Shown here: piece by piece, positions 7,719-23,674 of the stretch
How positions within the stretch are numbered: position 1 is the first letter of the stretch
Layout: every line of letters begins with the position of its first letter
Program-made: the position numbers and the translations under genes
NCBI GenBank assembly: GCA_017465055.1
Contig: JAFTWZ010000016.1
Coordinates: forward strand, 1 to 39,043
Direction: 5' to 3'
Length of the DNA: 39,043 bases
From: Alistipes sp.
Lineage (GTDB): Bacteria; Bacteroidota; Bacteroidia; Bacteroidales; Rikenellaceae
The notes under the pieces: model-generated
Seen by the model: the letters and a program-made list of their open reading frames with translations, nothing else
Databases searched by the model: none
What the model was told of the DNA's origin: nothing

Positions 7719-8534
7719 TTAGTACTGCTCCTTCTCGTTGGGGAAGTCACGGCTCTTAACATCGTCGACATAGTGGCCTACAGCCTCCGAAATAGTAGTG
7801 CCGAGATCGGCATAGCGGCGCAGGAAGCGGGGAGAGAAGGCCTGCGTGATGCCGAGCATATCGTGGGCAACGAGCACCTGGCCATCGGTAGCGCCACCAG
7901 CACCAATGCCAATAGTCGGTATGCGCAGCTCCTCCGACACTCGCTTACCGAGCGTAGCTGGAATCTTCTCCAAGACTAAGGCAAAGCAGCCTGCCTCCTC
8001 CAAGAGGTGAGCATCGCGCACCAACTTTGTAGCCTCGGCCTCATCCTTAGCACGCACGTTGTATGTACCGAACTTATGTATCGCCTGGGGCGTAAGTCCG
8101 AGGTGTCCCATAACGGGGATACCTGCCGAGAGTATACGGTTCACCGACTCGAGAATCTCCTCGCCACCCTCGAGCTTAACGGCATCGGCCTCGGTCTCCT
8201 TCATAATCCTCACGGCCGAATCGAGGGCCACCTTCGAGTTACCCTGGTATGTGCCGAACGGCAGGTCGACAACAACAAGGGCGCGCTCCACAGCACGCAC
8301 AACCGATTTAGCGTGATAGATCATCATATCGAGGGTTATAGGCAGCGTAGTCTCAAAGCCAGCCATAACGTTGGCAGCTGAGTCGCCCACGAGGATAACA
8401 TCGACGCCCGCCTGATCGACAATCTTGGCCATAGAGTAGTCATACGATGTTAGCATAGCGATCTTCTCGCCACGCTGTTTCATCTCCGTAAGGCGCAGCG
8501 TAGTAACTGCCCTTAGTGTACTTTCAACTGACAT
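7719..8534 (-). CDS. panB: 3-methyl-2-oxobutanoate hydroxymethyltransferase PanB
   Basis: First committed step of pantothenate/CoA synthesis: transfers hydroxymethyl from methylene-tetrahydrofolate to 3-methyl-2-oxobutanoate, giving ketopantoate. It is a cytosolic TIM-barrel enzyme. The 271 residues match the family length. The Mg2+ ligands Asp51 (VGDSAANV), Asp90 (VVVDLPFG) and Glu122 (KLEGG) and the catalytic Glu189 (LVLEKIPA) are all in place relative to the E. coli enzyme. MGHLGLTPQ and [15 protein letters not shown] are also family motifs. It stands alone here; panC and panD are not in the window. A -7 box lies 64 nt upstream. Confidence 0.96.
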
Positions 8535-8597
8535 AGTTTTGCAAATTTTAATTTGTCATCCTCGGAGCAATAGCACTCTCCCAAGACTAATATTCAG

Positions 8598-8605
8598 CAA
8601 AGGTA
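8598..8605 (-). promoter_or_regulatory. -7 promoter element TACCTTTG of panB
   Basis: Reads TACCTTTG on the minus strand, 63 nt before the panB ATG. No TTTG was found at the expected -33 position. Confidence 0.5.
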
Positions 8606-8663
8606 TACAAAAAAGTGATACATCGAGCATCGCAGCTCAGAAAATATATTCTCTATCTCCGAC

Positions 8664-9935
8664 CTATCTTCTGCGTCTAAATGTCAGCAGACAGAATATT
8701 GTCACCAGGAGCATAAAGCATAGGCTCACAATACGAAATCCTACGGCCGTAGAGCACATAAACTCCTTGTAGGGAAACATCTCGTTTATCAGGCTCGCGC
8801 CATCCCAAATGGCCGAGAAGAGCGTGAGGCTGGTGATGACGAAGAGCAGGCGGTTCATACGCGAGTCGGCGCGCTTTTCGCGTATCATATTCTGTCGCTC
8901 GATACGCTCGTATACGCGGCTCTTCTCGCTCTCTATCTCCAACGCCTTAGATATATGGTCGTCGATCATTCGCGGCAGGAAGTTGTACGATATATCGATA
9001 AAGTAGTACTTAGCCTCGAAGTCATCGTACGTCTCGCTAATCATCGAACGGCGTGAACGGCGCTTAGCAACATCGTAGTCATTGTTTAGCGCAAAGAGGT
9101 ATACCTTAACAAAGAGGCAGTAGAGGTATATCATCCCGAAGTAGTTATCTATCCAGTTGCAGCGATTGCTATCCGAGATATCGACACCGAGAATTGTAAA
9201 GCTATCGATAAGCGACAGCGCCATCCAGTTATTGTAGACCGAGAGGCTATTTTGCGCCATAATCTTATTGAAGTGCACGTCGCTCATACCATCCAATGCT
9301 TTAGCACCACTTGGTTTCAACGATAGCGTAGCCAGGTCGTAAAGACTTCTATCGTTGAACTTGGCCTCGCTGTCACACTCGTCGACATTCACAATCTGGA
9401 ATATCTTGAGTTTGTTGCCATAGAGCATCAGGTGTTCGTAGCGCGATGCCACATTCTCAACATCTCCAATAGCGCTGCAGTAGCTCATAATAGGCTCTAC
9501 GGCGACATCGACGAATGGCTTTATACTCTCGTTATCGTCGTAGTTCATTATGTTGCGCAACTGGAACATCACGCGGCTAATGTCGTCGTAGTCGTCTGTC
9601 TCCATCGAGACCATAATGCTAAAGAGCGCTATGTCGAAGGGACAGATATAGATACCGAGACGCTCAACTTGCACTTTATATTGACGCTCTCCGAACTCGA
9701 GTGTCACCTCTCCCCTCTCCGCGTCGAGGTCATAGACATAGCGGTTGAATCCGTCGATACCCTGGCTCTTATCGCCAAAGCATACGTCATAAAAACGCGA
9801 GTAATAGTAGCGGTGGCCTATGTTACGCTCTTTGTCACTCTTCACCGCGTGCTGCCATTTGGCGTCGTGCCCCTCAGGCGTCAGCTGCGCACCCCGTGTC
9901 GAGAAGTTACCGCATATAATACCAGTATAGTGCAT
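8664..9935 (-). CDS. unrecognised protein with two C-terminal membrane helices, divergent from the STAND NTPase
   Basis: I do not recognise this 423-residue protein. There is no signal peptide. Residues 1-320 look soluble, with a mixed N-terminal part (about 1-110) and then helices. About 325-361 forms a long, highly charged helix (EIESEKSRVYERIERQN). Two hydrophobic segments follow at about 362-387 and 398-419, joined by a short loop, and the protein ends RRRR. This layout (soluble domain, long charged helix, two closely spaced C-terminal helices) recalls CorA-superfamily channels, but the GMN signature is absent, so that is only a structural guess. It is transcribed away from the 1396-residue NTPase gene across a 227-nt shared intergenic region, which suggests joint regulation or function. 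No sign of truncation. Confidence 0.75.
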   Translation of the reverse strand: MHYTGIICGNFSTRGAQLTPEGHDAKWQHAVKSDKERNIGHRYYYSRFYDVCFGDKSQGIDGFNRYVYDLDAERGEVTLEFGERQYKVQVERLGIYICPFDIALFSIMVSMETDDYDDISRVMFQLRNIMNYDDNESIKPFVDVAVEPIMSYCSAIGDVENVASRYEHLMLYGNKLKIFQIVNVDECDSEAKFNDRSLYDLATLSLKPSGAKALDGMSDVHFNKIMAQNSLSVYNNWMALSLIDSFTILGVDISDSNRCNWIDNYFGMIYLYCLFVKVYLFALNNDYDVAKRRSRRSMISETYDDFEAKYYFIDISYNFLPRMIDDHISKALEIESEKSRVYERIERQNMIREKRADSRMNRLLFVITSLTLFSAIWDGASLINEMFPYKEFMCSTAVGFRIVSLCFMLLVTIFCLLTFRRRR

Positions 9936-9966
9936 AGTCTCTTTTGATTTTTTTCGTTACATTATA

Positions 9967-9998
9967 CAAAAGTAATAAAAAGTATCGCAATACACAAC
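9967..9998 (-). promoter_or_regulatory. promoter of the membrane protein gene, GTTG-N20-TACTTTTG
   Basis: On the minus strand a GTTG (9995-9998) lies 20 nt upstream of TACTTTTG (9967-9974), 31 nt before the ATG at 9935. The -33 element is one base off TTTG. Confidence 0.5.
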
Positions 9999-10106
9999 GA
10001 TAGTAGACTAAAAATAGTTAACCCCGAGGGTCGACACACACTCTATATAGCACCGCACGCTCTGAAAAAACTCGCTTTTAAACTCCTTTTATTCCAAAAA
10101 AAATCG

Positions 10107-10114
10107 TATCTTCG
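10107..10114 (+). promoter_or_regulatory. -7-like element TATCTTCG of the STAND NTPase gene
   Basis: TATCTTCG differs by one base from TAnnTTTG and lies 48 nt before the ATG at 10163, following an A-rich tract. No clear -33 element was found. Confidence 0.4.
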
Positions 10115-10162
10115 CACAATAGTAGGCTTTATCTACTCACAACAACAATTAACCCACCGATT

Positions 10163-13100
10163 ATGTCACGCTATAAACTACTACGCAACTACACCGCCGA
10201 GGAGAACGAGCAACACCAGATGCTTATCGAACGAGCCATCAACGAGCTACCCTTTAGCCTTGCGCACCCCTTAGACCAACTGCGCCAGAGTCTCGACGAG
10301 GAGGACTACTACCGCTCTATGATTCTCGCTCTGGACCTGGTCGAGGTGTCGCTACAGTGGCTCTCGACGCTAATGCTCGTGCGCCTCATATCCCACCCTA
10401 CGCATAGCGCCAAGAGTATGGAGCGTATGCAGCGCGTTGTAACTAAGATAGATACTAAGCGCTCGCTATCGATGGGCGACTGGCTGGTAGAGATATTCGT
10501 ACCCTTAGCCACATCGCTTAGAGAGGATATTCCCAATGACCCTATGGCCGAGGCTATCGCCAAGCATCTATTCAAGGGCAACGCCTGTCGCCTGCTCGGC
10601 GATAAGCGCGAACCCAGCGTGGTAAACATACGTAACGAGTACCGCGGACACAGCACAACACTATCGCAGGAGCTATATCGCGGTGTGGTATACACCCTCG
10701 AGACACACCTTTTAGCACTGCTCAATGCCACCGCACCACTGCATAGCGGCGACTACTACTCGACCAAGGAGGATGTCGCACGTGGTCCTCTGCGCATAAG
10801 CCATAAAGGCTCTGCTACCCACGATTATAATCCCTCGACCGAGGCCGTAGCCGCAAACCACTACTACGCTACGATAGATACTGCCTCGGGGCGCCAGACC
10901 TACGACCTCTTCCCACTTATCTACTGCTCCGACGAGGGGTATGTCTACATCTTCCAGACACTCGGCGAGGATAACATAGCCTACATATCGTCGAACATAC
11001 ACGCGCCACGCATACACCACGACAACTACAACGACCACTTCGATGCTCTGCTACAGAATATCGACAAGTCGTTCGATATATCGAAGGAGCTAAATTGGGA
11101 GGAGATACAGCAGGCGCTAAGTGGCGAGTCGAAGCGCTACTTGGCGAGGATATACAGCGAGAAGAAGTACAACCGCGAGCTCTTCATCGACCACCGCGAC
11201 TTAACGGCACTACTCCACGACTTCTACGCCAGCGACAAGACGATACTACCACTCCTGGGCGAGGCTGGCCAGGGTAAGACCAACCAGCTATGTTTCTGGG
11301 CCGAGGAGCATATAAACAATGCCGACGGTGTGGTTATCTTCAGCAGTAGCGACTTCGCGGTTATGGGTCTTGAGACGCGCCTACGTAAGATTCTCGGCTA
11401 CGGACCTCGCCGCGACATACACAAGATAGTGGATATGATGCACGCGCGTGCGGTGCAGAGCGGCAAGCAGATATATGTCATCTTCGATGCACTCAACGAG
11501 TGTCTCTCCTACGCCGACACCTCAGACATCGAGGGTCCTCTGGCGCTCTACAACGAGATATACCGCATACTCATATCCCCGAGCGAGGTTGGTGGCAAGA
11601 GCCGATACCCCAACATAAAGATACTCTTCAGCTGCCGTAGCTACACCTTCAAGTCGCTCTTCGGTGGTATCGCCGAACGCGATGGCGACATAATGCTTCT
11701 CGGTGGCGACAACACCCCCACGGCCGTGCGCGGCTTCAGTGGCGAGGAGCTGCAGCGCGCCTATGGCGTATATCAGGAGCTGTACCAGATGGAGACACCA
11801 TTCGATGAGCTTAGCCGCGTAGCTACCGTACGTCTAAAGGATCCTTTGGTGCTGAAGATAGCCTCGGCAAACTACCTTAGCCGTAGCCTTCCAGAGGATA
11901 TTCACAGCTACGCCTCGATAACGCTCTTCGACAAGATGTTTCGCGATATGGAGAGCTCCTACGCCGGACATAAGCAGGGAGAGATACTTCTCCGTATCGG
12001 TAGCTACATACTCGATGGTTACCTCGGTGGCCAGGCAATAGATAGCATCTCGGAGGCTATGCTCCACGAGGCTTACGACGATGTAACGTCGCCTGTGCAC
12101 CAGCTCTCGAGGCTCATATACAAGCAGGATGGTACCTCGGTGGCATATGGCGAGCTTATAAACCGCCCCGAGAGACCTATACTCCGACTGGTCGACGTCA
12201 TCGGAAGCGACTCTAAGTCGTTGCAATTTATCTACGAGCGATTCTTAGAGTACATCCTCGCCCGTGTCTTCGTCGCCCGAATGCGCGAGGGCATAGCCTC
12301 ATACATAGCTATAGCTCCCGAGCGCTACATCGAGAGCCTCACACGAGCTAAGACCAATGTAGTATTTATGGGAGCTATGCGCAACGCCCTGATTATCGAC
12401 CTACTACACACCCACGACTACACCACCTTGCTGACGTTGGCACGCGACTATAGCTCCAACTATGAAGCCTCGGCACTTATAAGCGACGTGTGCAACACGC
12501 TGGTGCGCGAGAACTACGAGGGCGAGATATTTAGGCTCATCGAACTTATGCTCAATGCCAACTTAGAGGATGGCACGGAGGTAACCGCCAAGCTCAACGC
12601 TCTGACTAAGAAGATAGATAAGGGTCAGGCCACAAGCGATGTGATACGCCAGCACCGCGAGCTCCACAGCCGCCTCGAGCCCATCATACGCCTCAGGCAG
12701 ATGGCCTTAGTCAACACCTTCAATGGTCTACTGCTGAGCGACTACTTCAACGAGGAGCTGTATACACTAAAGCCTATGGAGCTTGTGTGGCGTATGGTGT
12801 GCGACCCAATTAAGGAGGTTGCCGACGACGCCTGCACCTACGCCTACTACCTCTCGAACCATAGCCACACGCTCGACTACACACCTCTTAAGCGTAACCT
12901 TACGGAGTATATCGTCGAAGAGATGTATGCGCTTGTCAAGTCGCGCAGTCTTCTCACTAACCTCGCCGTAGGTCGCCTACGTAGGCGCGCCATCATCTTC
13001 ATCGAGTCGGCGGTGCGCATCACTACGCTGCTTATCATCGACTCGCTACTCTCCGAGACCGACGAGGGACGTAAGCGTGTCGTAGCACTTATCGACCAGG

Positions 13101-14353
13101 TGCGCGACATTATGCGCTACGTGAGTGGCCGCTGGTTGCTTATCCGTGTGGTTATGCCCTTCTTGCAGCTAATAATGCGCAAGCAGATAACCTTCCAGAG
13201 CAGCTATGTCAACAACGCCATCGAGTATCAGCGTTTCTGGGACGATGGAGCGATACCCCACAATGCTGCCGACGAGGCTACGTGGGATAGGGTCTCGTTG
13301 CGCGAATGCCTCTCGTTCTTAGGCTACAGCGTAGCTACCGATGCTGAGCGCCAGACCCTCGATGCCGACTTCGAGCGCTTCCGCCGTAAGATTGTGTCGT
13401 GCTACGCTACGGGCGACAGCTTCAGCTACTTTGTCGTCGAGCGTATGCTCATCGTTATGGGCGTCAGCCGCTGGGAGAGCCTCTATGAGATGTATCGCGA
13501 CGACCTCTTCCGCGCAAGCCGCCAGAGCCCGTGGAACGACTACTCGCAGATGTCGCTCTTGTACAACCTCTTCCATACAGGCCTAAACATCGAGCTAAGA
13601 CCCGAGCTACTGGCTCTCTACAGCCAGCAGGCAGAGGATTGGACACTACGCTGCCGCGGTGAGTTCGTAGCGCCGTATAGCGCTAAGGCAAATACTAAGG
13701 GACGCTACAAGCGTAACGTGCTGAGCTGGTACGCCGCACTCTACTGCACACACTCGGGCGACAATAGGCCTCTGGAGGGTGATAATCGCTGCGTACCACT
13801 AATCTATAAACTTATAGATCAGGCTATCGACACGCGCGACAAGGAGCTTTTGTTCCACCTTATGGACAACATTTCGGAGATAGTCACCGACTTTGGCTTT
13901 GTAAACACTGCCCTGGCGCTGGTATACCACATCCTCTCGCGCATAGATAACAGCGAGCTACTTAACGAGATAGACTCTGTTAAGCTCGACCGCGACGGCA
14001 TCTACAGCAGCGACACCGCCACGCTTATCGGCAACATTCTGAGCACGGCGAAGAACTACCAGCCTATCGCCGTCGACACCTTCCTCAGGCGCGACATCGT
14101 AGGCCTTAGCTTCCCAGCCATCTCGCAGTACCGCGAAGATATTCTCGGCTATAATCCGAGTGGCGAGTCGCTCTCAGACCTGCTGACACACAAGTTCGGC
14201 AAGTTCGTTGTATGGACTCTTATCCACCAGCCCGAGGTTAACGCCTTTGCACGCCGCGCTGTCGATGGCGCTGTCGACGCAAAGAGTTGCTTCGACTGGT
14301 ACGACAAGGTTGTACGACTTGCCTTCCGCGAGCTATTCCGAATAAATGTGTAG
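10163..14353 (+). CDS. large STAND/NACHT-like P-loop NTPase with HEPN-like N-terminal motif
   Basis: A 1396-residue multidomain protein I cannot place in a named family. Residues 1-195 are helical (LPFSLAHPLDQL near the start) and contain RNEYRGH at 157-163, which fits the R-x(4-6)-H ribonuclease motif of HEPN domains with the common Asn after Arg. Residues 235-285 are strand-rich (LFPLIYCSDEGYVYIF). A P-loop NTPase follows: Walker A GEAGQGKT (366-373), Walker B IYVIFDALNE (437-446) and a sensor-like strand ILFSCRS (487-493). From about 540 to the end it looks all-helical, like HEAT/ARM-type repeats. No signal peptide or membrane segment is seen. Sensor-NTPase-effector architecture of this kind is common in bacterial conflict systems; the function here is inference. 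Codon use matches its neighbours. A single intact frame covers it. Confidence 0.8.
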   Translation: MSRYKLLRNYTAEENEQHQMLIERAINELPFSLAHPLDQLRQSLDEEDYYRSMILALDLVEVSLQWLSTLMLVRLISHPTHSAKSMERMQRVVTKIDTKRSLSMGDWLVEIFVPLATSLREDIPNDPMAEAIAKHLFKGNACRLLGDKREPSVVNIRNEYRGHSTTLSQELYRGVVYTLETHLLALLNATAPLHSGDYYSTKEDVARGPLRISHKGSATHDYNPSTEAVAANHYYATIDTASGRQTYDLFPLIYCSDEGYVYIFQTLGEDNIAYISSNIHAPRIHHDNYNDHFDALLQNIDKSFDISKELNWEEIQQALSGESKRYLARIYSEKKYNRELFIDHRDLTALLHDFYASDKTILPLLGEAGQGKTNQLCFWAEEHINNADGVVIFSSSDFAVMGLETRLRKILGYGPRRDIHKIVDMMHARAVQSGKQIYVIFDALNECLSYADTSDIEGPLALYNEIYRILISPSEVGGKSRYPNIKILFSCRSYTFKSLFGGIAERDGDIMLLGGDNTPTAVRGFSGEELQRAYGVYQELYQMETPFDELSRVATVRLKDPLVLKIASANYLSRSLPEDIHSYASITLFDKMFRDMESSYAGHKQGEILLRIGSYILDGYLGGQAIDSISEAMLHEAYDDVTSPVHQLSRLIYKQDGTSVAYGELINRPERPILRLVDVIGSDSKSLQFIYERFLEYILARVFVARMREGIASYIAIAPERYIESLTRAKTNVVFMGAMRNALIIDLLHTHDYTTLLTLARDYSSNYEASALISDVCNTLVRENYEGEIFRLIELMLNANLEDGTEVTAKLNALTKKIDKGQATSDVIRQHRELHSRLEPIIRLRQMALVNTFNGLLLSDYFNEELYTLKPMELVWRMVCDPIKEVADDACTYAYYLSNHSHTLDYTPLKRNLTEYIVEEMYALVKSRSLLTNLAVGRLRRRAIIFIESAVRITTLLIIDSLLSETDEGRKRVVALIDQVRDIMRYVSGRWLLIRVVMPFLQLIMRKQITFQSSYVNNAIEYQRFWDDGAIPHNAADEATWDRVSLRECLSFLGYSVATDAERQTLDADFERFRRKIVSCYATGDSFSYFVVERMLIVMGVSRWESLYEMYRDDLFRASRQSPWNDYSQMSLLYNLFHTGLNIELRPELLALYSQQAEDWTLRCRGEFVAPYSAKANTKGRYKRNVLSWYAALYCTHSGDNRPLEGDNRCVPLIYKLIDQAIDTRDKELLFHLMDNISEIVTDFGFVNTALALVYHILSRIDNSELLNEIDSVKLDRDGIYSSDTATLIGNILSTAKNYQPIAVDTFLRRDIVGLSFPAISQYREDILGYNPSGESLSDLLTHKFGKFVVWTLIHQPEVNAFARRAVDGAVDAKSCFDWYDKVVRLAFRELFRINV

Positions 14354-14359
14354 CACACG

Positions 14360-14390
14360 CTTGCCGTAAAGCATATTTGTTGTAACTTTG
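14360..14390 (+). promoter_or_regulatory. promoter of the GDPD gene, CTTG-N19-TAACTTTG
   Basis: CTTG (14360-14363), a 19-nt spacer and TAACTTTG (14383-14390) lie just after the NTPase stop codon and 26 nt before the next ATG. The downstream gene pair is therefore probably a separate transcription unit from the NTPase. Confidence 0.7.
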
Positions 14391-14415
14391 TCGTAGGTAA
14401 TTATAACCCCGATTT

Positions 14416-15273
14416 ATGATTAAAATAGTTATAAAGATTATATTAACACTTTTGGCCGTCGCAGGCATATGGTTAGCACTGTCGTGCACACACGCGATGG
14501 CCACATTGGGAGATGATCGAATGAAGGAGAATATCGTAATCACCGCACATCGTGGCGGCGCAGGCTATGGCCCCGAGAATAGCCTCTCGTGCATACGTCG
14601 CTCGTTGGATGCCGGAGTGCCATCGATAGAGATCGACGTGCAGCTAACAAAGGATGGCCACGTAGTGGTATGTCACGACAACAAGGTCAACCGCACAACA
14701 AACGGCCGAGGTAAGCTCTCGGAGATGACCCTTGATAAGCTCCGCGCCCTGCGCCTTGTAGACGCCGATGGTAACGCCTTAGACGAGTCTCTACCACTAC
14801 TTAGTGAGGTGCTCGAGCTGATTGATGGCCGAGCACACCTGCTACTCGAGATTAAGCGCTACCGCGACACAGCCGACAAGTTACAACAGGCTGTTGCCGA
14901 CGAGCTTCGTCGCCACAACGCCTTAGAGTGGACCACGGTGCAGTCGTTTAGCGACCTTACGCTTAGCCAGATGCACGCACTTGTGCCCGAGTTACGCCTC
15001 GAGAAGCTCGCCTTCTGCAAGATTTTGGGACTACCACTACTCTTCGACGGCGGTCTGAGACACTTTAGCCTCGAGCGCTATGCGCACGTTGAGTCTATAA
15101 ACTTCTTCTACGGCGGTATCTCCGAGAAGTTTGTCGAGGAGCTACACCACGCCGGCAAGCGCGTGAGGATATGGACCGTAAACGAGCCAGAGAGACGCCC
15201 TAACCTATCGGTCGACGGCATCATTACGGACTATCCCGACCTTCTGATGTCGCACTTAGGCACGGAGAAGTAA
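14416..15273 (+). CDS. glycerophosphodiester phosphodiesterase (GDPD) family protein
   Basis: TIM-barrel metal-dependent phosphodiesterase, normally hydrolysing glycerophosphodiesters to glycerol 3-phosphate and an alcohol. Family residues are visible: His45-Arg46 in AHRGG, Glu54 in PENS, Glu72 and Asp74 in EIDVQ, His87 in CHD, plus EIK in the middle and WTVN near the C-terminus. The N-terminus (about 1-25) is a hydrophobic export segment ending LALSC; this is a weak lipobox, so it may be a lipoprotein or simply membrane-anchored, with the enzyme outside the cytoplasm. The beta-galactosidase gene follows after only 38 nt, with no promoter seen between them, so the two are likely co-transcribed. 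Confidence 0.9.
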   Translation: MIKIVIKIILTLLAVAGIWLALSCTHAMATLGDDRMKENIVITAHRGGAGYGPENSLSCIRRSLDAGVPSIEIDVQLTKDGHVVVCHDNKVNRTTNGRGKLSEMTLDKLRALRLVDADGNALDESLPLLSEVLELIDGRAHLLLEIKRYRDTADKLQQAVADELRRHNALEWTTVQSFSDLTLSQMHALVPELRLEKLAFCKILGLPLLFDGGLRHFSLERYAHVESINFFYGGISEKFVEELHHAGKRVRIWTVNEPERRPNLSVDGIITDYPDLLMSHLGTEK

Positions 15274-15311
15274 CTGAGTAGAGCTGTTTAAACCTAATAC
15301 GATAACCCATT

Positions 15312-17804
15312 ATGAGACGAGTAGTGATTATGTTGCTTGGCATCATAGCCTTTACCGCTATGGCCGAGGCTCAGGTGCGTAGTGAGCAACTCTTGGAGCG
15401 AGGTTGGCGTTTTACACGCGACGACAGCCCCACGTTTAGCCTTGTGGAGTGCGACGATAGTGCCTGGCAACAGGTGACAATACCCCACGACTGGGCTATA
15501 TACGGTCCATTTAGCATAAACAACGATCGCCAGAATGTGGCCATCACGCAGGATGGTCAGAAGGAGGCTATGGAGCACGCTGGACGCACCGGAGGTCTCC
15601 CCTTCGTGGGCGTAGGATGGTATCGCCTAAAGTTCGATATCGCAAGCCTTGAGGATAACCGCGTAACGCTCATCTTCGACGGAGCTATGAGCCACGCGCG
15701 CGTCTATGTCAATGGTCACGAGGCGGGTTACTGGCCCTATGGCTACAACTCGTTCCACTTAGACGTCACGCCATACGTCAACGAGGGAAGCAACCAGCTT
15801 GCCGTGCGCCTCGAGAATAAGCCCGAGTCGTCGCGCTGGTATCCAGGCGCAGGCCTCTACCGCAACGTGCACCTCGTAGTTACCAACGACGTGCACATCC
15901 CCGTGTGGGGCACGCAGATCACTACACCCGAGGTTACCAAAGATTATGCTAAGGTGGTAATGCGCACCGAGATATCCTTGCCCGAGGGTGCTGAGGCCAA
16001 GCACTGTAAGCTCGTTACCGACATCCTTAACGCCGAGGGCGTGGTTGTTGCCTCGTCAGAGGATGGCATCGGCCTCTACAACGACAGAGTCATAGAGCAG
16101 TGTATCGACGTAGCACGCCCCGAGCTATGGAGCGTCGATAGCCCTACGCTCTACACCGCAGCGTCGAAGCTTTACTACGATGGCGAGCTACGCGACGAGT
16201 ATACCACACACTTCGGCATCCGCACCATCGAGATTATCCCCGAGAAGGGTATGTTTATCAACGGCGAGCTTACGAAGTTCAAGGGCGTCTGCAACCACCA
16301 CGACTTAGGTCCTTTAGGTGCTGCCGTCAACGATGCCGCCATACGCCGCCAGATACGTATAATGAAGGATATGGGCTGTAATGCTATACGCACGTCGCAC
16401 AATATGCCAGCTCCAGAGCTTGTTGCCGCCTGTGACCAGATGGGTATGATGCTTATGCTCGAGTCGTTCGACGAGTGGCGTACCGCCAAGCTCGCTAATG
16501 GCTACCACAACTACTTCGACGAGTGGGCGGAAAAGGATATTGTCAACCTCGTGCGCCACTACCGCAACAACCCCAGCGTGGTGATGTGGTGCATAGGCAA
16601 TGAGGTTCCCGACCAGGGTGACCTTATCTGGGGTCCTAAGCTCTCGCGTATGTTGCAGGATATATGCCACCGCGAAGACCCTACGCGCCCCGTAACACAG
16701 GGTATGGATCAGCCTCATAACGTCGTATATAACAATATGGCAGCTACGATGGACGTGGCGGGCTTTAACTACCGCCCACACCTCTACGGCGACAACTATC
16801 TACGCCTGCCACAGCAGATAGTGCTCGGCTCGGAGACCGCCTCTACGGTGAGTAGCCGTGGCGTCTATAAGTTCCCTGTTGAGCGTCGCTCGATGGCCAC
16901 CTACGACGACCACCAGTCGTCGTCGTACGACGTGGAGCACTGCGGCTGGTCGAACCTCCCCGAGGATGACTGGCTCTGGCACGACGACTTCTCGTGGGCC
17001 ATTGGCGAGTTCGTATGGACTGGCTTCGACTACTTAGGCGAGCCTACGCCCTACTATACCGACTGGCCAAGCCACTCGTCGCTCTTCGGCATTGTGGACC
17101 TTGCAGGTCTGCCTAAGGATCGCTACTACCTCTATCGTAGCCACTGGAACAAGGATGTCGAGACGCTCCACATACTCCCCCACTGGACGTGGCCAGGACG
17201 CGAGGGCGAGACCACACCTATATTCGTCTATACGAACTACCCCTCGGCCGAGCTCTTTATCAACGGCGTGAGCCAGGGCGTGCGCACTAAGGATATGAGC
17301 GTCACGTGGGAGAATAGCGCCGACAAGGAATCGATGTTGTCGCTGAAGCGTCAGCAGCGCTACCGCCTTATGTGGATGGACACGAAGTACGAGCCGGGCG
17401 TTGTCAAGGTTGTGGCCTACAACGACAAGGGCGAGGCTGTAGCCGAGAGCGAGGTGCGCACCGCAGGCAAGCCTCACCATATAGAGCTCGAGGCCGACCG
17501 CACAACCATCAAGGCCGATGGTCGTGACCTATCGTTCGTAACGGTCAAGGTCGTTGACAAGGATGGCAACCTCTGCCCCGATGCCTCGCATAGCATCGCA
17601 TACACTGTCTCGGGCGAGGGTTTCTACCGTGCAGGTGCCAATGGCGACCCAGTATCGTTGGAGCTCTTCCACGAGCCTAAGATGCGGGTGTTCAAGGGTA
17701 TGATGACTGCCATAGTCCAGAGCGATGGCGACAGCGGCAAGATTACGCTACGCGCCACGTCTAAGGGTCTTAAGAGCGCCAAGATAGAGATCTCGGCCGA
17801 GTAA
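15312..17804 (+). CDS. secreted glycoside hydrolase family 2 protein, beta-galactosidase-like
   Basis: Exported retaining glycosidase of 830 residues. A Sec signal peptide (about 1-20, MRRVVIMLLGIIAFTAMAEA) is followed by the GH2 sugar-binding jelly roll (about 25-190, with GVGWYR and GAGLYRNV), an immunoglobulin-like domain (about 195-305) and the catalytic TIM barrel (about 310-610). The acid/base is Glu431 in CIGNE; the nucleophile is Glu508 in VLGSETA. The C-terminal portion resembles DUF4982 (HWTWPG...VYTNYPSAELFINGVSQG region, about 615-710) followed by an invasin-type Ig-like domain. The exact substrate, a beta-galactoside or a glycan of host or plant origin, cannot be told from sequence. 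It is probably the second gene of the GDPD operon; no SusCD pair is nearby. Confidence 0.92.
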   Translation: MRRVVIMLLGIIAFTAMAEAQVRSEQLLERGWRFTRDDSPTFSLVECDDSAWQQVTIPHDWAIYGPFSINNDRQNVAITQDGQKEAMEHAGRTGGLPFVGVGWYRLKFDIASLEDNRVTLIFDGAMSHARVYVNGHEAGYWPYGYNSFHLDVTPYVNEGSNQLAVRLENKPESSRWYPGAGLYRNVHLVVTNDVHIPVWGTQITTPEVTKDYAKVVMRTEISLPEGAEAKHCKLVTDILNAEGVVVASSEDGIGLYNDRVIEQCIDVARPELWSVDSPTLYTAASKLYYDGELRDEYTTHFGIRTIEIIPEKGMFINGELTKFKGVCNHHDLGPLGAAVNDAAIRRQIRIMKDMGCNAIRTSHNMPAPELVAACDQMGMMLMLESFDEWRTAKLANGYHNYFDEWAEKDIVNLVRHYRNNPSVVMWCIGNEVPDQGDLIWGPKLSRMLQDICHREDPTRPVTQGMDQPHNVVYNNMAATMDVAGFNYRPHLYGDNYLRLPQQIVLGSETASTVSSRGVYKFPVERRSMATYDDHQSSSYDVEHCGWSNLPEDDWLWHDDFSWAIGEFVWTGFDYLGEPTPYYTDWPSHSSLFGIVDLAGLPKDRYYLYRSHWNKDVETLHILPHWTWPGREGETTPIFVYTNYPSAELFINGVSQGVRTKDMSVTWENSADKESMLSLKRQQRYRLMWMDTKYEPGVVKVVAYNDKGEAVAESEVRTAGKPHHIELEADRTTIKADGRDLSFVTVKVVDKDGNLCPDASHSIAYTVSGEGFYRAGANGDPVSLELFHEPKMRVFKGMMTAIVQSDGDSGKITLRATSKGLKSAKIEISAE

Positions 17805-17969: not shown

Positions 17970-19355
17970 CTATTTATCTTGCTCGCGACTCTCCTCCCTC
18001 TCGCTACCGCCACCTAAGGCTATGTAGAGGTTTACGCATCCCTGAATCTCGTCGAAGCGGTCGCTGATGGCCGCAATCTGACCAGCAAGCAAGCTCTGCT
18101 GCGCGGTAAGCACCTCGAGATATGTCGTAGAGCCATAATCCATAAGTAGCTGCGTAGCCTCGGCAGCCTTAGCTAACGCCTCAACTTGACTTGTGCGCAA
18201 CTGCAGCTTCTGGCGCGCGGTCTGCACCTGCGAGAGAGCGGTATTTACCTCGCTACCAGCGTTTAGAAGGCTCTGCTCGAAGGCTAACATCACCTCCTCG
18301 CGCTGCGCCTCGGCAATGCGCACCTGAGCACGTAGCTTACCCGAGTTGAAGATAGGCGCCGTGAGCGATGCGGCGGCCGAGAGAATCAAACCTCCAGGAT
18401 TGGTGACAATAGAGCCGACGTTATTTGTCCAGCCGAGAAGGCCGCTAAGCGTGAGCGTTGGGTAGAGCTGCGAACGTGCTGCCGCCGTAGCGTAGTGCGC
18501 CTGCATAAGCCTATACTCGGCCATACGCACATCGGGGCGACGCGAAAGGAGCGATACGGGGACTCCTATGCTTAGCTCCTCGGGCATCTGCTGCTCATCG
18601 AGCGTGCCGCGCGCGATGCTGTGAGGAGCATCGCCTAACAGCGCACAGAGGCTACTCTCAACAGCCACGATGCTATGCTCTATGTCGAGCAGCGTGGCGT
18701 GGGCATCGTAGGCCGCAGCCTCTATCTGAGCCACACCTGCCGCGTTGGCCATACCGCCCTCCATCAACGCACGCATAGTCTCGGCGCTGCTATCGAGCGA
18801 CGCGGCGACAAGGCGCGTAGCCTCGTGCTGGCCGTCGAGCATAAGGAGCGTGTAGTAGTAGTTGGCAATGGCCGAGATGAGCTGCACACGCACCGCCTGC
18901 TGATACTCCTCCGACTCGGCATATACGGCCTTAGCCCTGCGCTTGGCGTTGGTGATACCTCCGAAGATGTCTATCTGCCACGAGGCCGAGAGAGGCGCGG
19001 TGTAGGTCCAGCTGGCCTTCGAGCCATCGAAGCTCGAGACGCCACCATTGGGTGCGAGGTTAAACGATGGCAGGTAGGCAAGGCGTGCCGACTTAAGTGC
19101 CGCCTCAGCCTCCTCGATACGCCAGTGCGCAGCCTGCATATCGGTATTATGCTCAAGGCCATAGCGTATAAGCCCCTGAAGCTCTTCATCGGTAAAGAAC
19201 TCCTCCCACGCGAGCTGGGCAACCGAGACGGTATCGGTTTCGACGTTCTCTGCACCATAGAGCCCACCAGTCGCCACCTCGGGGCGCTCATAGGGCTTGT
19301 AGATACCACAGCTGGTAACCACAGCGGCTAAAACTATTACTATATATCTCTTCAT
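17970..19355 (-). CDS. outer-membrane efflux lipoprotein (TolC/OprM/NodT family)
   Basis: Outer-membrane exit duct of the tripartite pump encoded with the two genes upstream. The signal peptide ends in a lipobox, VVTSC (Cys16), followed by GIYKPYERP, typical of OprM/CusC lipoproteins. Two OEP repeats follow, each with long coiled-coil helices; LLSRRPDVRMAEYRLMQA and ARSQLYPTLTLSG are family signatures of the second half. At 461 residues the length is normal. It is the last gene of the operon, 21 nt after the RND pump gene. Substrate not predictable. Confidence 0.92.
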   Translation of the reverse strand: MKRYIVIVLAAVVTSCGIYKPYERPEVATGGLYGAENVETDTVSVAQLAWEEFFTDEELQGLIRYGLEHNTDMQAAHWRIEEAEAALKSARLAYLPSFNLAPNGGVSSFDGSKASWTYTAPLSASWQIDIFGGITNAKRRAKAVYAESEEYQQAVRVQLISAIANYYYTLLMLDGQHEATRLVAASLDSSAETMRALMEGGMANAAGVAQIEAAAYDAHATLLDIEHSIVAVESSLCALLGDAPHSIARGTLDEQQMPEELSIGVPVSLLSRRPDVRMAEYRLMQAHYATAAARSQLYPTLTLSGLLGWTNNVGSIVTNPGGLILSAAASLTAPIFNSGKLRAQVRIAEAQREEVMLAFEQSLLNAGSEVNTALSQVQTARQKLQLRTSQVEALAKAAEATQLLMDYGSTTYLEVLTAQQSLLAGQIAAISDRFDEIQGCVNLYIALGGGSEREESREQDK

Positions 19356-19376
19356 AACTATATCTATATCATCAAA

Positions 19377-22300
19377 TTAGCTCACTCTCTTATCCTCACT
19401 CTTCTCTATCGGTTTAATCTTCTCCTGCAGCCACTGGAATGCGATAAACAGACCTGGCACTAAGAATAGCAGTGCGATAGTACCTATAAGCATACCGCCC
19501 ACAACGCCCGAGCCGAGCGACGAGTTACCATTAGCACCTACGCCCGACGAGAACATCAGTGGCAACATTCCGAAGATCATCATAAGCACCGTCATAAGGA
19601 TAGGCCTTAGACGCGCACCTGCCGCCTCTAACGCGGCATCCTTGAGGCTCATACCCGCATTGCGGCGCTCCGTAGCGTACTCCGTAAGCAGGATAGCGGT
19701 CTTCGACAGCAGACCGATAATCATAATCATACCCGTCTGGAGGTAGATATTATTCTCAAGGCCCATAATCTTGGCAAATACCAAGCAGCCTAATAGACCT
19801 GCGGGCACGGCAAGGAGAACAGCAAATGGTGTCAGGTAGCTCTCGTAGAGCGAGGCAAGGAGCAGGTAGATAAGCAGGAAGCAGATGCCATATACGGCAA
19901 CGGCGTTGCTCGAAGTGCTCTCCTCCTCGCGCGTGAGGTCGCTAAACTCATAGTCGTAGCCTCGTGGCAACATCTGCTCGGCAGTCTCCTTGATAGCGCG
20001 TATCGCATCACCCGACGAGTAGCCCTCGGCAGCCTCGCCACTAACCGCTATCGAGGTGTACATATTGAAGCGGTTCAAGGTCTCTGGGCCATATATCTTT
20101 GTCAGCGTAACAAACTGGCTCACAGGAGCCATTTCGCCATTGACGCGCACAAATACATTATCCAAAGTCTCGATATCGCCTCTATCGCCAGGCGCCGCCT
20201 GCAACATCACGCGGTAGACCTTCGAGAAGCGGTTGATATCCGACACATACTGACCACCGTAGTAACCACCTATCGTTGCCAGCACATCCTTAGGCGATAT
20301 GCCTGCACGCTTACACTGTGCAGCGTCGACGTCGACCATATACTGCGGATAGTTGACGTTATAGGTCGTATATGCTAAGCCTATCTCGGGACGCTGGTTC
20401 AGAGCAGCGATAAACTTCATCGACACCTCGTAGAAATCCTCGATAGAGCCACTATTTAGATCCTGCAGGTGGAGCGAGAAACCACTGGCCGTACCGTAGC
20501 CCGAGATCATCGGCGGCACGATAGCGATAACCTGAGCATCCTTAACATCGGCGCACAGGGCCATAATCTTCTGGCTTAGGTAGCTCACGTTGTCGGTATC
20601 CTCGGGGCGAAGCTCCCAGTTCTTAAGTCGCACGATGATAGTACCGTACGACGAGCCCTGACCTGAGATGATACCGTAGCCCGAAATCTTACAAGAGGAG
20701 TCTATCTGCTCGATGGTCGAGATACGCTGGCTCACCTGCTCCATAACCTTGTCGGTCTGCTCGAGCGTAGAGCCTGGGGCCATAGTGACGTTGACCATAA
20801 TAGTACCCTGATCCTCCGAGGGCACAAGGCCTGTCTTGGTCGTAGAGAAGAGGTACACCATAGCCGCGATGACGACGATAAGCGTACCCCACAGTGCCCA
20901 CTTGCGGTTGATAAAGAAGCCTACGCCACGCTTATAGTGCTTCACAAGAGCATCGAACGCAGCATTGTAGGCATTGGCCAAACGTGTGCCGAGGCCCTGC
21001 TTATGCTCGCCCTCGGCGTGGGGCTTAAGCATTATGGCGCAGAGCGCTGGCGAGAGCGTCAGAGCGTTGATACCCGAGATACCCACGGCTATAGCCATCG
21101 TAATACCAAACTGCGTATAGAATATTCCCGACGTACCGCCCATCATCGATACGGGGATAAACACTGCCATAAATACCAGCGTCGAGGTCACAATCGCCGA
21201 CGATATGCCCTGCATAGCATCTACCGTAGCCTGGTATGCAGAGCGGTAACCAGCCTCGAACTTAGCCTGCACAGCCTCGACGACGATAACGGCATCGTCG
21301 ACAACAGTACCGATGGCCAACACCAACGCAAAGAGCGTAAGCATATTGATAGAGAAGCCCAAGAGCGCCAGGGCCGCGAACGTACCGACAAGCGACACGA
21401 TAATCGAGATAAGCGGAATAATCGACGAGCGCACACTCTGCAGGAAGATAAAGACTACCAAGATAACTAAGATGATAGCCTCGACCAGAGTCTTGACCAC
21501 CTCGTGTATCGAGGCGAAGAGGAACTCGTTGCTATCCATAATGCTCACGAACTCAACGTCACGAGGAGCCTTCTCCTGCTCCTCCTTGATAAGCTCGTCG
21601 ATGGTCTTAAGCACCTGCGTAGCATTCGAGCCTGGGGTCTGATAGAGCATCGCCACCACACCATTGTGGCCATTTACCGTAGAGGTAAAGGCGTAAGTCT
21701 CGTTGCCGAACTCGACGTCGGCTACATCCTTAAGGCGCAACACCTCGCCCGTAGGTAGCGACTTAATCACTATCTGGTCAAACTCCTCGGGCGTAACCTT
21801 ACGGCCTCGATAGCGCATCGTGTACTGAAACGTACCTCCCGAGTTCTCGCCTATGTTACCTGTCGATGCCTCGATATTCTGCTCGGCAAGCACCGCGTTT
21901 ATGTCTGCAGGCACAAGGCCGTGCTGAGCCATAGCATCGGGCCTAAGCCATATACGCATCGAGTATTTCGAGCCGAGCGTCATACACTCGCCCACACCAT
22001 TGATACGCAGCAGCTTAGGCTGTATATTATTAACGAAGTAGTTCGACAAGAAGGTCTCGTCGTAGGTACCCTCGGGCGAGTAGATACCTATAGCCTTGAT
22101 TATCGAGGTCTGCTTCTTAGCCGTCTGCACACCCATACGCGTCACCTCGGCAGGAAGCACCGACGTAGCTCGCGTAACGCGGTTTTGCACATTTACCGCG
22201 GCCATATCGGGATCGGTACCCTGTTGGAAGAATACCGAGATTGTAACCTTACCAGTATTCGATGCCGTAGAGGTCATATAGGTCATATTCTCCACACCGT

Positions 22301-22511
22301 TAATCTGCTCCTCGAGGGGCGCGATAACAGACTTCTGGATGGTCTCGGCCGAGGCTCCTGGATAGGAGGTTGTTACGTTGATAGTCGGAGGTGCTATCGT
22401 CGGAAACTGCTCGATAGGCAGCGACAAAAGGCCCACGATACCTGCCAACATTATGGTTACAGATATCACCGTCGAGAGCACCGGGCGGTCTATAAAGTGT
22501 TTTAAATTCAT
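19377..22511 (-). CDS. RND efflux pump, inner-membrane HAE1-type transporter (AcrB-like)
   Basis: Proton-driven drug transporter of the inner membrane, trimeric in the family. It has 1044 residues with the expected twofold architecture: TM1 at about 10-30, a large periplasmic porter loop, TM2-6 at about 340-500, then a second TM and loop and a final TM bundle. The proton-relay aspartates are present as Asp405-Asp406 in GTVVDDAVIVVE. LPIEQFPTIAPPTINV at the N-terminus is the HAE1 signature and argues against a heavy-metal (CzcA) pump. It lies 59 nt after the adaptor gene and 21 nt before the outer-membrane factor gene, in the usual adaptor-pump-duct order. Substrates of such pumps are typically hydrophobic drugs, bile salts or detergents; none is shown here. 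Confidence 0.95.
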   Translation of the reverse strand: MNLKHFIDRPVLSTVISVTIMLAGIVGLLSLPIEQFPTIAPPTINVTTSYPGASAETIQKSVIAPLEEQINGVENMTYMTSTASNTGKVTISVFFQQGTDPDMAAVNVQNRVTRATSVLPAEVTRMGVQTAKKQTSIIKAIGIYSPEGTYDETFLSNYFVNNIQPKLLRINGVGECMTLGSKYSMRIWLRPDAMAQHGLVPADINAVLAEQNIEASTGNIGENSGGTFQYTMRYRGRKVTPEEFDQIVIKSLPTGEVLRLKDVADVEFGNETYAFTSTVNGHNGVVAMLYQTPGSNATQVLKTIDELIKEEQEKAPRDVEFVSIMDSNEFLFASIHEVVKTLVEAIILVILVVFIFLQSVRSSIIPLISIIVSLVGTFAALALLGFSINMLTLFALVLAIGTVVDDAVIVVEAVQAKFEAGYRSAYQATVDAMQGISSAIVTSTLVFMAVFIPVSMMGGTSGIFYTQFGITMAIAVGISGINALTLSPALCAIMLKPHAEGEHKQGLGTRLANAYNAAFDALVKHYKRGVGFFINRKWALWGTLIVVIAAMVYLFSTTKTGLVPSEDQGTIMVNVTMAPGSTLEQTDKVMEQVSQRISTIEQIDSSCKISGYGIISGQGSSYGTIIVRLKNWELRPEDTDNVSYLSQKIMALCADVKDAQVIAIVPPMISGYGTASGFSLHLQDLNSGSIEDFYEVSMKFIAALNQRPEIGLAYTTYNVNYPQYMVDVDAAQCKRAGISPKDVLATIGGYYGGQYVSDINRFSKVYRVMLQAAPGDRGDIETLDNVFVRVNGEMAPVSQFVTLTKIYGPETLNRFNMYTSIAVSGEAAEGYSSGDAIRAIKETAEQMLPRGYDYEFSDLTREEESTSSNAVAVYGICFLLIYLLLASLYESYLTPFAVLLAVPAGLLGCLVFAKIMGLENNIYLQTGMIMIIGLLSKTAILLTEYATERRNAGMSLKDAALEAAGARLRPILMTVLMMIFGMLPLMFSSGVGANGNSSLGSGVVGGMLIGTIALLFLVPGLFIAFQWLQEKIKPIEKSEDKRVS

Positions 22512-22570
22512 CTTATGTTACAATCTACTTATTATCAACTGTTTACTCTATTGCTATGTGGCATCGAAGG

Positions 22571-23674
22571 CTACTTCTGCTCCTTAAGCGTTACGGGCGT
22601 ACCCTCGCGCAACATAGCCACACCCTCGGTGATTATCACCTCGCCAGCCTCGAGTCCCGAGCGCACGATATAGTTCTGACCATCGTACTTCGCTACCTCG
22701 ACAATCTTCGACACGGCCTTGCCATCGACTGGCTGGTATACATAGGTCTTGTCCTGCACCTCGAAGGTGGCGATGCAAGGGATGACTATCTGATTGGCCT
22801 CGATATATCTGAGAACCACATTGCCCGAGCCACCACTAAGGAGTAGACGTCCAGGATTGGGGAATACGGCACGCAGCGACACAGCGCCAGTCTGCTGATC
22901 GACCAGACCACTTACCGACTCAATCTTACCCTTATGTTCGTAGATAGTACCATCGCTAAGCTCAAGCTCGGGGAGTGGAAGCGCCGCGAGCGCCTCGCTC
23001 ATAGAGCCGTGCTGACGCGTAAGTTTGAGTAGCTCCTTCTCCGTAAGCGAGAAGTAGACGTACATCTCCGAGTTGTCCGACACCGAGGTCAGCGGCCTTG
23101 CCATCTGTGGGCCTACAAGAGCACCGACGCGGTATGGCAGCGTGCCGACAACACCCTCCGACGGAGCTTTCACTACGGTGTAGCTTAGACTATTAGCCGC
23201 ATTAACGCGCTGCGCCTCGGCCTGCGCCAATGCCGCCTTTGCCGTGAGCAGCTGGTTGCGCGCCACGCTCAGCTCATACTCCGAGATTACGTTCCGAGCA
23301 CGTAGCTCTACCTTGCTGTCGTAGGTAAGCTGCGCTGTCTCGACACCCGCCTTTGCCGCCTCGACATTAGCCTCGGCAGTTGTCAGCGCCGCCTTGAATG
23401 GCACCTGGTCGATAATAAAGAGGGTCTGACCACGCTTCACGCGCTCACCCTCGACAACCTTTACCTCCGATATCGTACCACTGACCTGGGGCACAATATC
23501 GATATCCTGACGACCACGTATCGACGCCGAGAATCGACTCTCCACCTCTGTATCGGCCGTAGCTACCTCGATATATCCGTACGTTGCAACCTGCTCAACC
23601 ACAGGCGCTTGTCCACATCCTACAAAAAGCGTAGCCATCGCAGCAGCCACACCAAGAGACACACTCCTCTTCAT
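22571..23674 (-). CDS. RND efflux periplasmic adaptor lipoprotein (AcrA/MexA-like)
   Basis: Membrane-fusion protein linking the RND pump to the outer-membrane duct. It has a lipoprotein signal, LFVGC with Cys20. The order is the lipoyl/barrel-sandwich half (VPQVSGTISEVKVVEGERVKRGQTLF, cited by its start at about residue 60), an alpha-helical hairpin (about 100-165), the second lipoyl half (VKAPSEGVVG), the beta-barrel and the membrane-proximal domain. At 367 residues it is of normal length. First gene of the operon, with a good sigma-type promoter about 55-85 nt upstream. No TetR- or MarR-type regulator gene is adjacent, so control, if any, is from elsewhere. Confidence 0.94.
   Translation of the reverse strand: MKRSVSLGVAAAMATLFVGCGQAPVVEQVATYGYIEVATADTEVESRFSASIRGRQDIDIVPQVSGTISEVKVVEGERVKRGQTLFIIDQVPFKAALTTAEANVEAAKAGVETAQLTYDSKVELRARNVISEYELSVARNQLLTAKAALAQAEAQRVNAANSLSYTVVKAPSEGVVGTLPYRVGALVGPQMARPLTSVSDNSEMYVYFSLTEKELLKLTRQHGSMSEALAALPLPELELSDGTIYEHKGKIESVSGLVDQQTGAVSLRAVFPNPGRLLLSGGSGNVVLRYIEANQIVIPCIATFEVQDKTYVYQPVDGKAVSKIVEVAKYDGQNYIVRSGLEAGEVIITEGVAMLREGTPVTLKEQK

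Follow-up and report, generated by a model that had tools for sequence, protein, structure and literature searches.

The described systems closest to the locus reported here include the Avs2 proteins and the CorA effectors of type III CRISPR systems (here and below, citations by PMC number refer to excerpts of the papers). Avs1-Avs4 detect packaging proteins of phages and function as nucleases, and Avs5 works via an N-terminal Sir2 domain (PMC12931631). In the type III-B Cmr system of B. fragilis, CorA and the phosphodiesterase NrN are both required for immunity; CorA binds S-adenosylmethionine-AMP (SAM-AMP) and presumably acts by disrupting the membrane, and removing its membrane part abolishes immunity (PMC10600005). 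NrN can be replaced by a SAM-AMP lyase (PMC12255297). A count of type III loci with CorA came to 53, and one clade is suspected to have a different activator (PMC11229360); III-D loci with CorA are without known SAM-AMP-cleaving enzymes (PMC12669027). We analysed a stretch of 39,043 nucleotides from Alistipes sp. (assembly GCA_017465055.1, contig JAFTWZ010000016.1, positions 1 to 39,043), the whole of which is called the window. It carries a cassette of three genes, encoding a CorA-like membrane protein, a STAND NTPase and a GDPD-family phosphodiesterase. These three genes almost certainly form one conserved unit, and from their sequences we consider it likely that the unit is a defence system.

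The original prediction for this stretch described two of the genes, a divergent pair of a two-helix membrane protein and a STAND NTPase, as a candidate conflict system. Both open reading frames (ORFs) were found where it placed them and with the sizes it gave, and the pair does belong to a conserved accessory unit of patchy distribution; the gene count of two did not hold, as the GDPD gene had been overlooked. The cassette comprises the following features:

8535..15311, no single strand: complete cassette, from panB to galB, missing at the empty site
8664..9935, minus strand: CorA-like membrane protein, candidate membrane effector (ORF, 423 aa)
8688..8846, minus strand: C-terminal transmembrane hairpin region of the CorA-like protein, about residues 364-416 (hydropathy)
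10163..14353, plus strand: STAND NTPase, candidate sensor (ORF, 1396 aa)
10631..10651, plus strand: HEPN-like motif RNEYRGH, residues 157-163, in the STAND N-terminal domain (motif conservation)
11258..11281, plus strand: Walker A GEAGQGKT, residues 366-373 of the STAND (motif conservation)
11477..11500, plus strand: Walker B VIFDALNE, residues 439-446 of the STAND (motif conservation)
11843..14350, plus strand: long C-terminal region of the STAND, residues 561-1396, presumed sensor part
14416..15273, plus strand: GDPD-family phosphodiesterase, third component (285 aa, Pfam PF03009)
14425..14481, plus strand: N-terminal hydrophobic anchor or signal of the GDPD, residues 4-22 (hydropathy)

Using five membrane proteins as queries on genome contigs, we obtained 29 loci, all from Bacteroidota. 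With the window and L046 (G347) included there are 31 distinct loci, second copies being counted once (L020=L008, L037=L010, L040=L009, L041=L011, L047=L034); L numbers label loci and G numbers genomes, the window genome being G000. The window-type STAND is carried by 22 of the 31 CorA-like loci (window, L008, L017, L018, L019, L021-L023, L025, L027-L034, L036, L038, L039, L046 and L024/L121), a fraction that is biased because most of the three-gene loci came from the CorA bait. The GDPD gene, which was never a bait, lies immediately downstream of the STAND gene, on the same strand and with a spacing of -4 to +85 bp, in all 21 assessable loci, that is, those with sequence downstream of the STAND; the contig of L019 ends inside the STAND, and this locus was excluded from the count. 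Near the nine CorA-like genes without a window-type STAND (L009, L010, L011, L026, L035, L042, L043, L044 and L045) no GDPD match was found, one of these loci, L043, being a 3.2-kb contig. With the STAND as bait, all four genomes with a long match (G000, G136, G347 and G447) have all three genes. In L024 the CorA-like gene is a fragment, which was excluded from the CorA-like alignment; another contig of the same genome has the STAND, the GDPD and the missing CorA start. Gene order is mostly divergent, co-directional in L036 and L046 and rearranged in L034, with constant gene content. Since the divergent arrangement of the pair is found again in other genomes, chance is excluded, and homologues of the membrane protein and the STAND are usually adjacent. 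The proteins also diverge in a correlated manner: across 19 loci, the protein distances correlate with r 0.957 for CorA-like and STAND, 0.920 for CorA-like and GDPD and 0.934 for STAND and GDPD, and none of 2000 permutations reached values as high.

An empty site was identified in two other genomes of the genus (L057 and L060), in which panB and galB are adjacent, 126 and 199 bp apart. In the window the corresponding genes flank the cassette:

7719-8534: panB
15312-17804: GalB-like beta-galactosidase gene (893.8 bits, slightly below the model cut-off of 900)

Because panB and galB are neighbours in the relatives, the extra DNA of the window amounts to just the three genes, which were thus gained or lost as one cassette. 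L017 carries its cassette at the same panB/galB position. These statements come from 30 panB loci (of 39 matches), comprising the two empty sites, the window and 27 loci that are uninformative, having no galB within 1.5 kb. Neither of the genomes with an empty site (85% and 80% complete) has a detected GDPD gene, and the sole GDPD gene detected in the window genome is the cassette copy. Terminal repeats of the cassette were not evident when one alignment of the junctions was inspected by eye. The statement that the pair has no metabolic neighbour has to be given up, since panB and the beta-galactosidase gene stand on its two sides.

The STAND is rare and patchy, and in the samples searched its long form was found within the order only. 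In the family sample (150 genomes), five genomes had a match to the membrane protein and two a match to the STAND, the window genome included, showing that the pair is not part of the core genome. The sample of the order (393 genomes) gave five STAND matches, of which three were long (G000, G447 and G347); weak partial matches in G417 (E 2e-4) and G472 (E 8e-5) were left out of the counts. A deeper STAND profile was used for 395 genomes of the phylum (E <= 1e-10); it matched at full length in the window genome only, and in five further genomes solely around the NACHT region.

The P-loop motifs of the STAND are present as predicted, and their key residues (Walker A: G366, A368, G369, G371, K372, T373; Walker B: D442, A443, N445, E446) are invariant in 19 of 19 aligned STANDs, window included; L019 and L039, the latter with a STAND broken by a stop, were excluded from this alignment. 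Conservation of residues 561-1396 is similar to that of the NACHT core (mean pairwise identity 0.42-0.51 versus 0.47). The best profile matches of both proteins of the pair are PADLOC defence families, Avs2 for the STAND and CorA-like for the membrane protein, and neither protein matches a characterised housekeeping family. In the window STAND the Avs2 profile covers residues 291-447 (E 4e-8), and the same profile is matched locally, over the NACHT-type core and the stretch preceding it, by all 19 aligned STANDs. The architecture of N-terminal domain, NTPase with Walker A and B, and long C-terminal half likewise resembles Avs2. The cassette STAND differs from Avs2 in that the match is local and the family model is not satisfied over its length (NCBIfam NF041813, 22.8 bits versus a cut-off of 1000, residues 282-446 only), and in having two extra linked genes. 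Furthermore, its N-terminus contains an RN-x4-H motif and no recognised nuclease profile, whereas Avs1-Avs4 are reported to work as nucleases (PMC12931631). A search by sequence profile for solved-structure relatives of the STAND gave nothing significant; its peptide patterns found no matching stretch in viral contigs, and a comparison with plasmids gave no match.

The window CorA-like protein matches two PADLOC CorA-like profiles (E 1.1e-10 and 1.9e-6), which we take to represent type III CRISPR accessories. At E <= 0.001 these profiles are matched by 23 and 21 of the 30 aligned membrane proteins. The two C-terminal membrane helices of the original prediction were recovered, as in 29 of the 30 proteins, window included, two segments are hydrophobic enough to exceed a simple hydropathy cut-off, the exception being L045. 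The likeness to the CorA of type III CRISPR systems thus lies in the C-terminal half, which matches the profiles, in the combination of a large soluble part with a C-terminal helical hairpin, and in one family member located in a Cas10 locus (L010). The cassette protein differs in being linked to a STAND and in having a GDPD as partner, with no recognised NrN, DEDD or lyase beside it. An identity as CorA magnesium channel was considered and rejected: the magnesium channel signature GMN is found in none of the 30 aligned proteins, PF01544 is absent from the Pfam matches at E <= 0.01, and an hhalign comparison of the CorA-like profile with ten housekeeping CorAs, picked by requiring the letters GMN, gave a probability of 6.8%, which is not significant. 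Kinship to magnesium channels is therefore unsupported, and by sequence the protein is a relative of the PADLOC CorA-like families, not demonstrably of the channels. Solved-structure relatives searched by sequence profile gave nothing significant, and a comparison with phage records gave no match.

Pfam PF03009 matches the third protein over its full length (E 2.4e-34, 120 bits versus a gathering score of 23.6), and the best solved-structure match is 2pz0. Residues H45, R46, E54, N55, E72, D74 and H87 are invariant in 20 of 20 aligned GDPDs; we read all of these except N55 as the GDPD catalytic residues, which would thus be retained as in known GDPDs. The cassette enzymes differ from the latter in their N-terminal anchor or signal and in the constant linkage to a STAND. 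An N-terminal hydrophobic segment is present in 19 of the 20 proteins and missing in L030 (hydropathy). Lysine or arginine precedes it at residues 2-9 in 17 of 20, which suggests that the catalytic domain is probably periplasmic. In a tree, a long and well-supported branch separates five other genomic GDPDs of the same order from those of the cassette, and the latter do not resolve as a single clade (rows L087, L094 and L096 are wrong-frame ORFs and are disregarded; L092 was excluded as too short). One further GDPD of the cassette type, anchored and without a STAND, was found about 9 kb from the L022 cassette (L022 20373-21248 = L120 5589-6464), and L019 contains a weak 24% GDPD match elsewhere.

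From the literature on CRISPR CorA and Avs proteins, roles can be proposed for the three components. The STAND would recognise an intracellular phage product via its long C-terminal half and then oligomerise with ATP, and its N-terminal domain, possibly a HEPN-type RNase, would turn the response on. The CorA-like protein, reached by contact or by a messenger, would act as membrane effector and open or disrupt the inner membrane. The anchored GDPD, its catalytic domain probably periplasmic, may act at this membrane as well; its substrates would most likely be phosphodiesters derived from lipids, and its part that of a second effector or a regulator of the CorA-like protein. We lean towards this full division of labour between sensor, membrane effector and membrane-facing phosphodiesterase in an abortive-type anti-phage cassette, and we hold it with less confidence than the assignment to defence as such.

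Several observations weigh against this interpretation. Clustering with known defence genes turned out to be weak. From 20 loci 94 flanking ORFs were selected, of which 87 were scanned (window flanks excluded, ORFs >1100 aa left out, some ORFs probably in the wrong frame, no control set), and at E <= 1e-20 each PADLOC profile was matched by at most two ORFs among the 25 of 37 profiles listed, several of the matched profiles being helicase types; the Pfam families of the flanks, 25 of 125 listed, are mostly housekeeping. The likeness to Avs2 spans approximately 160-200 of the 1396 STAND residues, the HEPN assignment of the N-terminus comes from the motif alone, and the comparison with housekeeping CorAs was negative. 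Cytosolic messengers would be out of reach of a GDPD that lies in the periplasm. Concerning the unit itself, part of the distance correlations may stem from common host ancestry, the bait bias affects the 22/31 fraction, and most loci are metagenome-assembled. The CorA-like genes of L009, L026 and L035 have no evident partner, and no STAND of the cassette family was found in their genomes. Moreover, in the CorA-like tree the copies linked to STAND and GDPD do not form one clade; there are four label changes, at least three of which are forced by well-supported branches, so that partners were swapped or lost more than once.

An alternative explanation for the phosphodiesterase is signal removal: the CorA-like channel would be gated by a signal of nucleotide type, made or triggered by the STAND, and the GDPD would clear this signal as NrN does for CorA. 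The GDPD does belong to a phosphodiesterase family, and a CorA-like family member is located in a Cas10 locus. We regard this scheme as unlikely, because the GDPD tracks the STAND and not CorA, with none near the nine STAND-less CorA-like genes (one on the 3.2-kb contig), and probably faces the periplasm, and because no cyclase or nucleotidyltransferase family is among the STAND matches listed. A Cmr2-type Cas10 was missing from three of four tested genomes with all three genes (other Cas10 models were not searched), and two such loci, L034 and L046, have a further small gene, described below, besides the GDPD. The killing activity could also reside solely in a HEPN-type RNase at the STAND N-terminus, with the membrane protein and the GDPD anchoring, restraining or cleaning up. 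Bacterial HEPN-STAND proteins are mentioned in the literature, and the published rule for HEPN RNases is Rx4-6H with a polar residue following the arginine (PMC3710099). The RN-x4-H motif, placed N-terminal to the STAND NTPase as in such proteins, satisfies this rule in 19 of 19 STANDs, with R157, N158 and H163 invariant. The motif behind the predicted RNA cutter is therefore there, and the family behind it did not appear: a Pfam scan of the 19 N-terminal regions at E up to 10, in which HMMER filters remove most matches above E 0.1, contained weak scattered matches and no HEPN family. The accessory HEPN motif Ex3[KR] (PMC3710099) is not evident either; E61 is invariant, but the window residue at +4 is a glutamine. 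As the membrane protein, in addition, comes from a family described as effector elsewhere, a purely RNase-based mechanism seems to us improbable.

A function outside defence was considered as well. GDPD enzymes usually serve in glycerophospholipid turnover, and the cassette could serve the envelope or lipid homeostasis, the STAND answering a host membrane signal and the GDPD and the CorA-like protein adjusting the membrane. The mostly housekeeping families listed for the flanks would agree with this. We find it decidedly doubtful in view of the patchy occurrence of the STAND (2/150 genomes of the family, three long matches in 393 of the order, one in 395 of the phylum), the presence or absence of the cassette between otherwise adjacent panB and galB, and the best matches of the STAND and the membrane protein, which are defence families. 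That the GDPD is a mere passenger beside a two-gene system can hardly be maintained. Many bacteria have a GDPD gene (11 of 14 control genomes did), and the copy near the L022 cassette has no adjoining STAND, but the linkage in 21 of 21 assessable loci, the short or overlapping spacing, the correlated divergence and the lack of a detected GDPD in the two empty-site genomes argue against it.

In the open-access literature searched (subscription papers and most preprints were outside its scope) we found neither a CorA-STAND nor a GDPD defence system; the components are of known kinds, and the three-gene combination was not found described. Excerpts of papers on STAND-type or BREX-related systems and on TRADD-N systems name neither GDPD nor CorA (PMC7159879, PMC12839542, PMC8195603), and the 2025 CRISPR classification, in the parts cited, treats CorA with type III only (PMC12669027). 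In kind, the cassette would be a STAND-based defence with effectors in trans. It would connect sensing of the NOD-like receptor (NLR) kind with a family of membrane effectors described to date in CRISPR contexts, and it adds a GDPD enzyme, for which no precedent was found in a described defence system within the same literature. As a compact three-gene unit with clear boundaries that fits on one plasmid, it offers an entry to how CorA-like effectors are gated and why they are paired with a phosphodiesterase.

The CorA-like family also occurs beside other partners. In L011 and L042 the gene stands next to a NACHT protein of about 2200 aa, and in L044 (9683-14558) and L045 (5753-10852) distant CorA-like genes adjoin nSTAND1-WD40 and nSTAND1 proteins; the membrane proteins of these two loci are distant relatives on long branches, that of L045 having a single membrane segment. 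L010 is the one Cas10 case seen among the 31 loci. The CorA-like tree unites the copies linked to Cas10 and to NACHT in a single well-supported group, which L034 joins with modest support. It is conceivable, though we would not count on it, that CorA-like proteins are a general membrane effector plugged into type III CRISPR and at least three STAND types (GDPD-linked, about 2200-aa NACHT and nSTAND1). Should their gating depend on a small molecule, as in CRISPR, the STANDs in question would act as NLR-like sensors and signal to a membrane channel via a diffusible messenger, and the GDPD would be the matching phosphodiesterase or a second, membrane-directed weapon.

A family of small proteins of 181-197 aa adjoins CorA-like genes in Cas10, NACHT and STAND-GDPD loci, and L034 and L046 have both this gene and the GDPD. 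The small proteins share the invariant residues H13, H17-F18 and G47-S-K-F50 and are candidates for a messenger-degrading or regulatory partner of CorA. The L034 copy has no match in Pfam or PADLOC and the L010 copy none in PADLOC; a profile of the six copies gave a chance-level match only against PDB sequences. The positions of these genes and of the CorA-like genes without partner are:

L010 8738-9283, L011 8980-9534, L034 10853-11446, L042 11216-11767, L043 1769-2359, L046 5134-5709: small-protein genes
L009 9023-10330 (97% complete genome), L026 9983-11296, L035 9983-11299: partnerless CorA-like genes

The combination of CorA-like gene, small-protein gene and NACHT gene of about 2200 aa represents a second system type in Rikenellaceae (L011 2200-8973; L042 11774-18424). 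The NACHT copy of L042 is interrupted by a stop, and by eye no cas genes were noticed beside this system type.

The cassette is not tied to Cas10. No cas genes were found among the six window neighbours scanned. Two genomes had matches to a Cmr2 model, each under the cut-off of the model: the window genome, where the match is on a contig other than the window's, and G022, which carries the L010 locus. The model matched nothing in G136, G347 and G447, which all have the three genes, or in G106 and G127. The match in the window genome belongs to a type III CRISPR-like locus (G000:C38, L050 8198-16364), which by eye also has ORFs resembling Cmr RAMPs and a Csx1-like protein. As the one CorA-like match of the window genome is the cassette copy, this Cas10 locus is without the family. 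Downstream of the GalB-like gene the window contains a NodT-type outer membrane efflux gene (17970-19355), and the adjoining ORFs 19377-22511 and 22571-23674 resemble by eye an RND pump and its adaptor, the whole region spanning 17970-23674.

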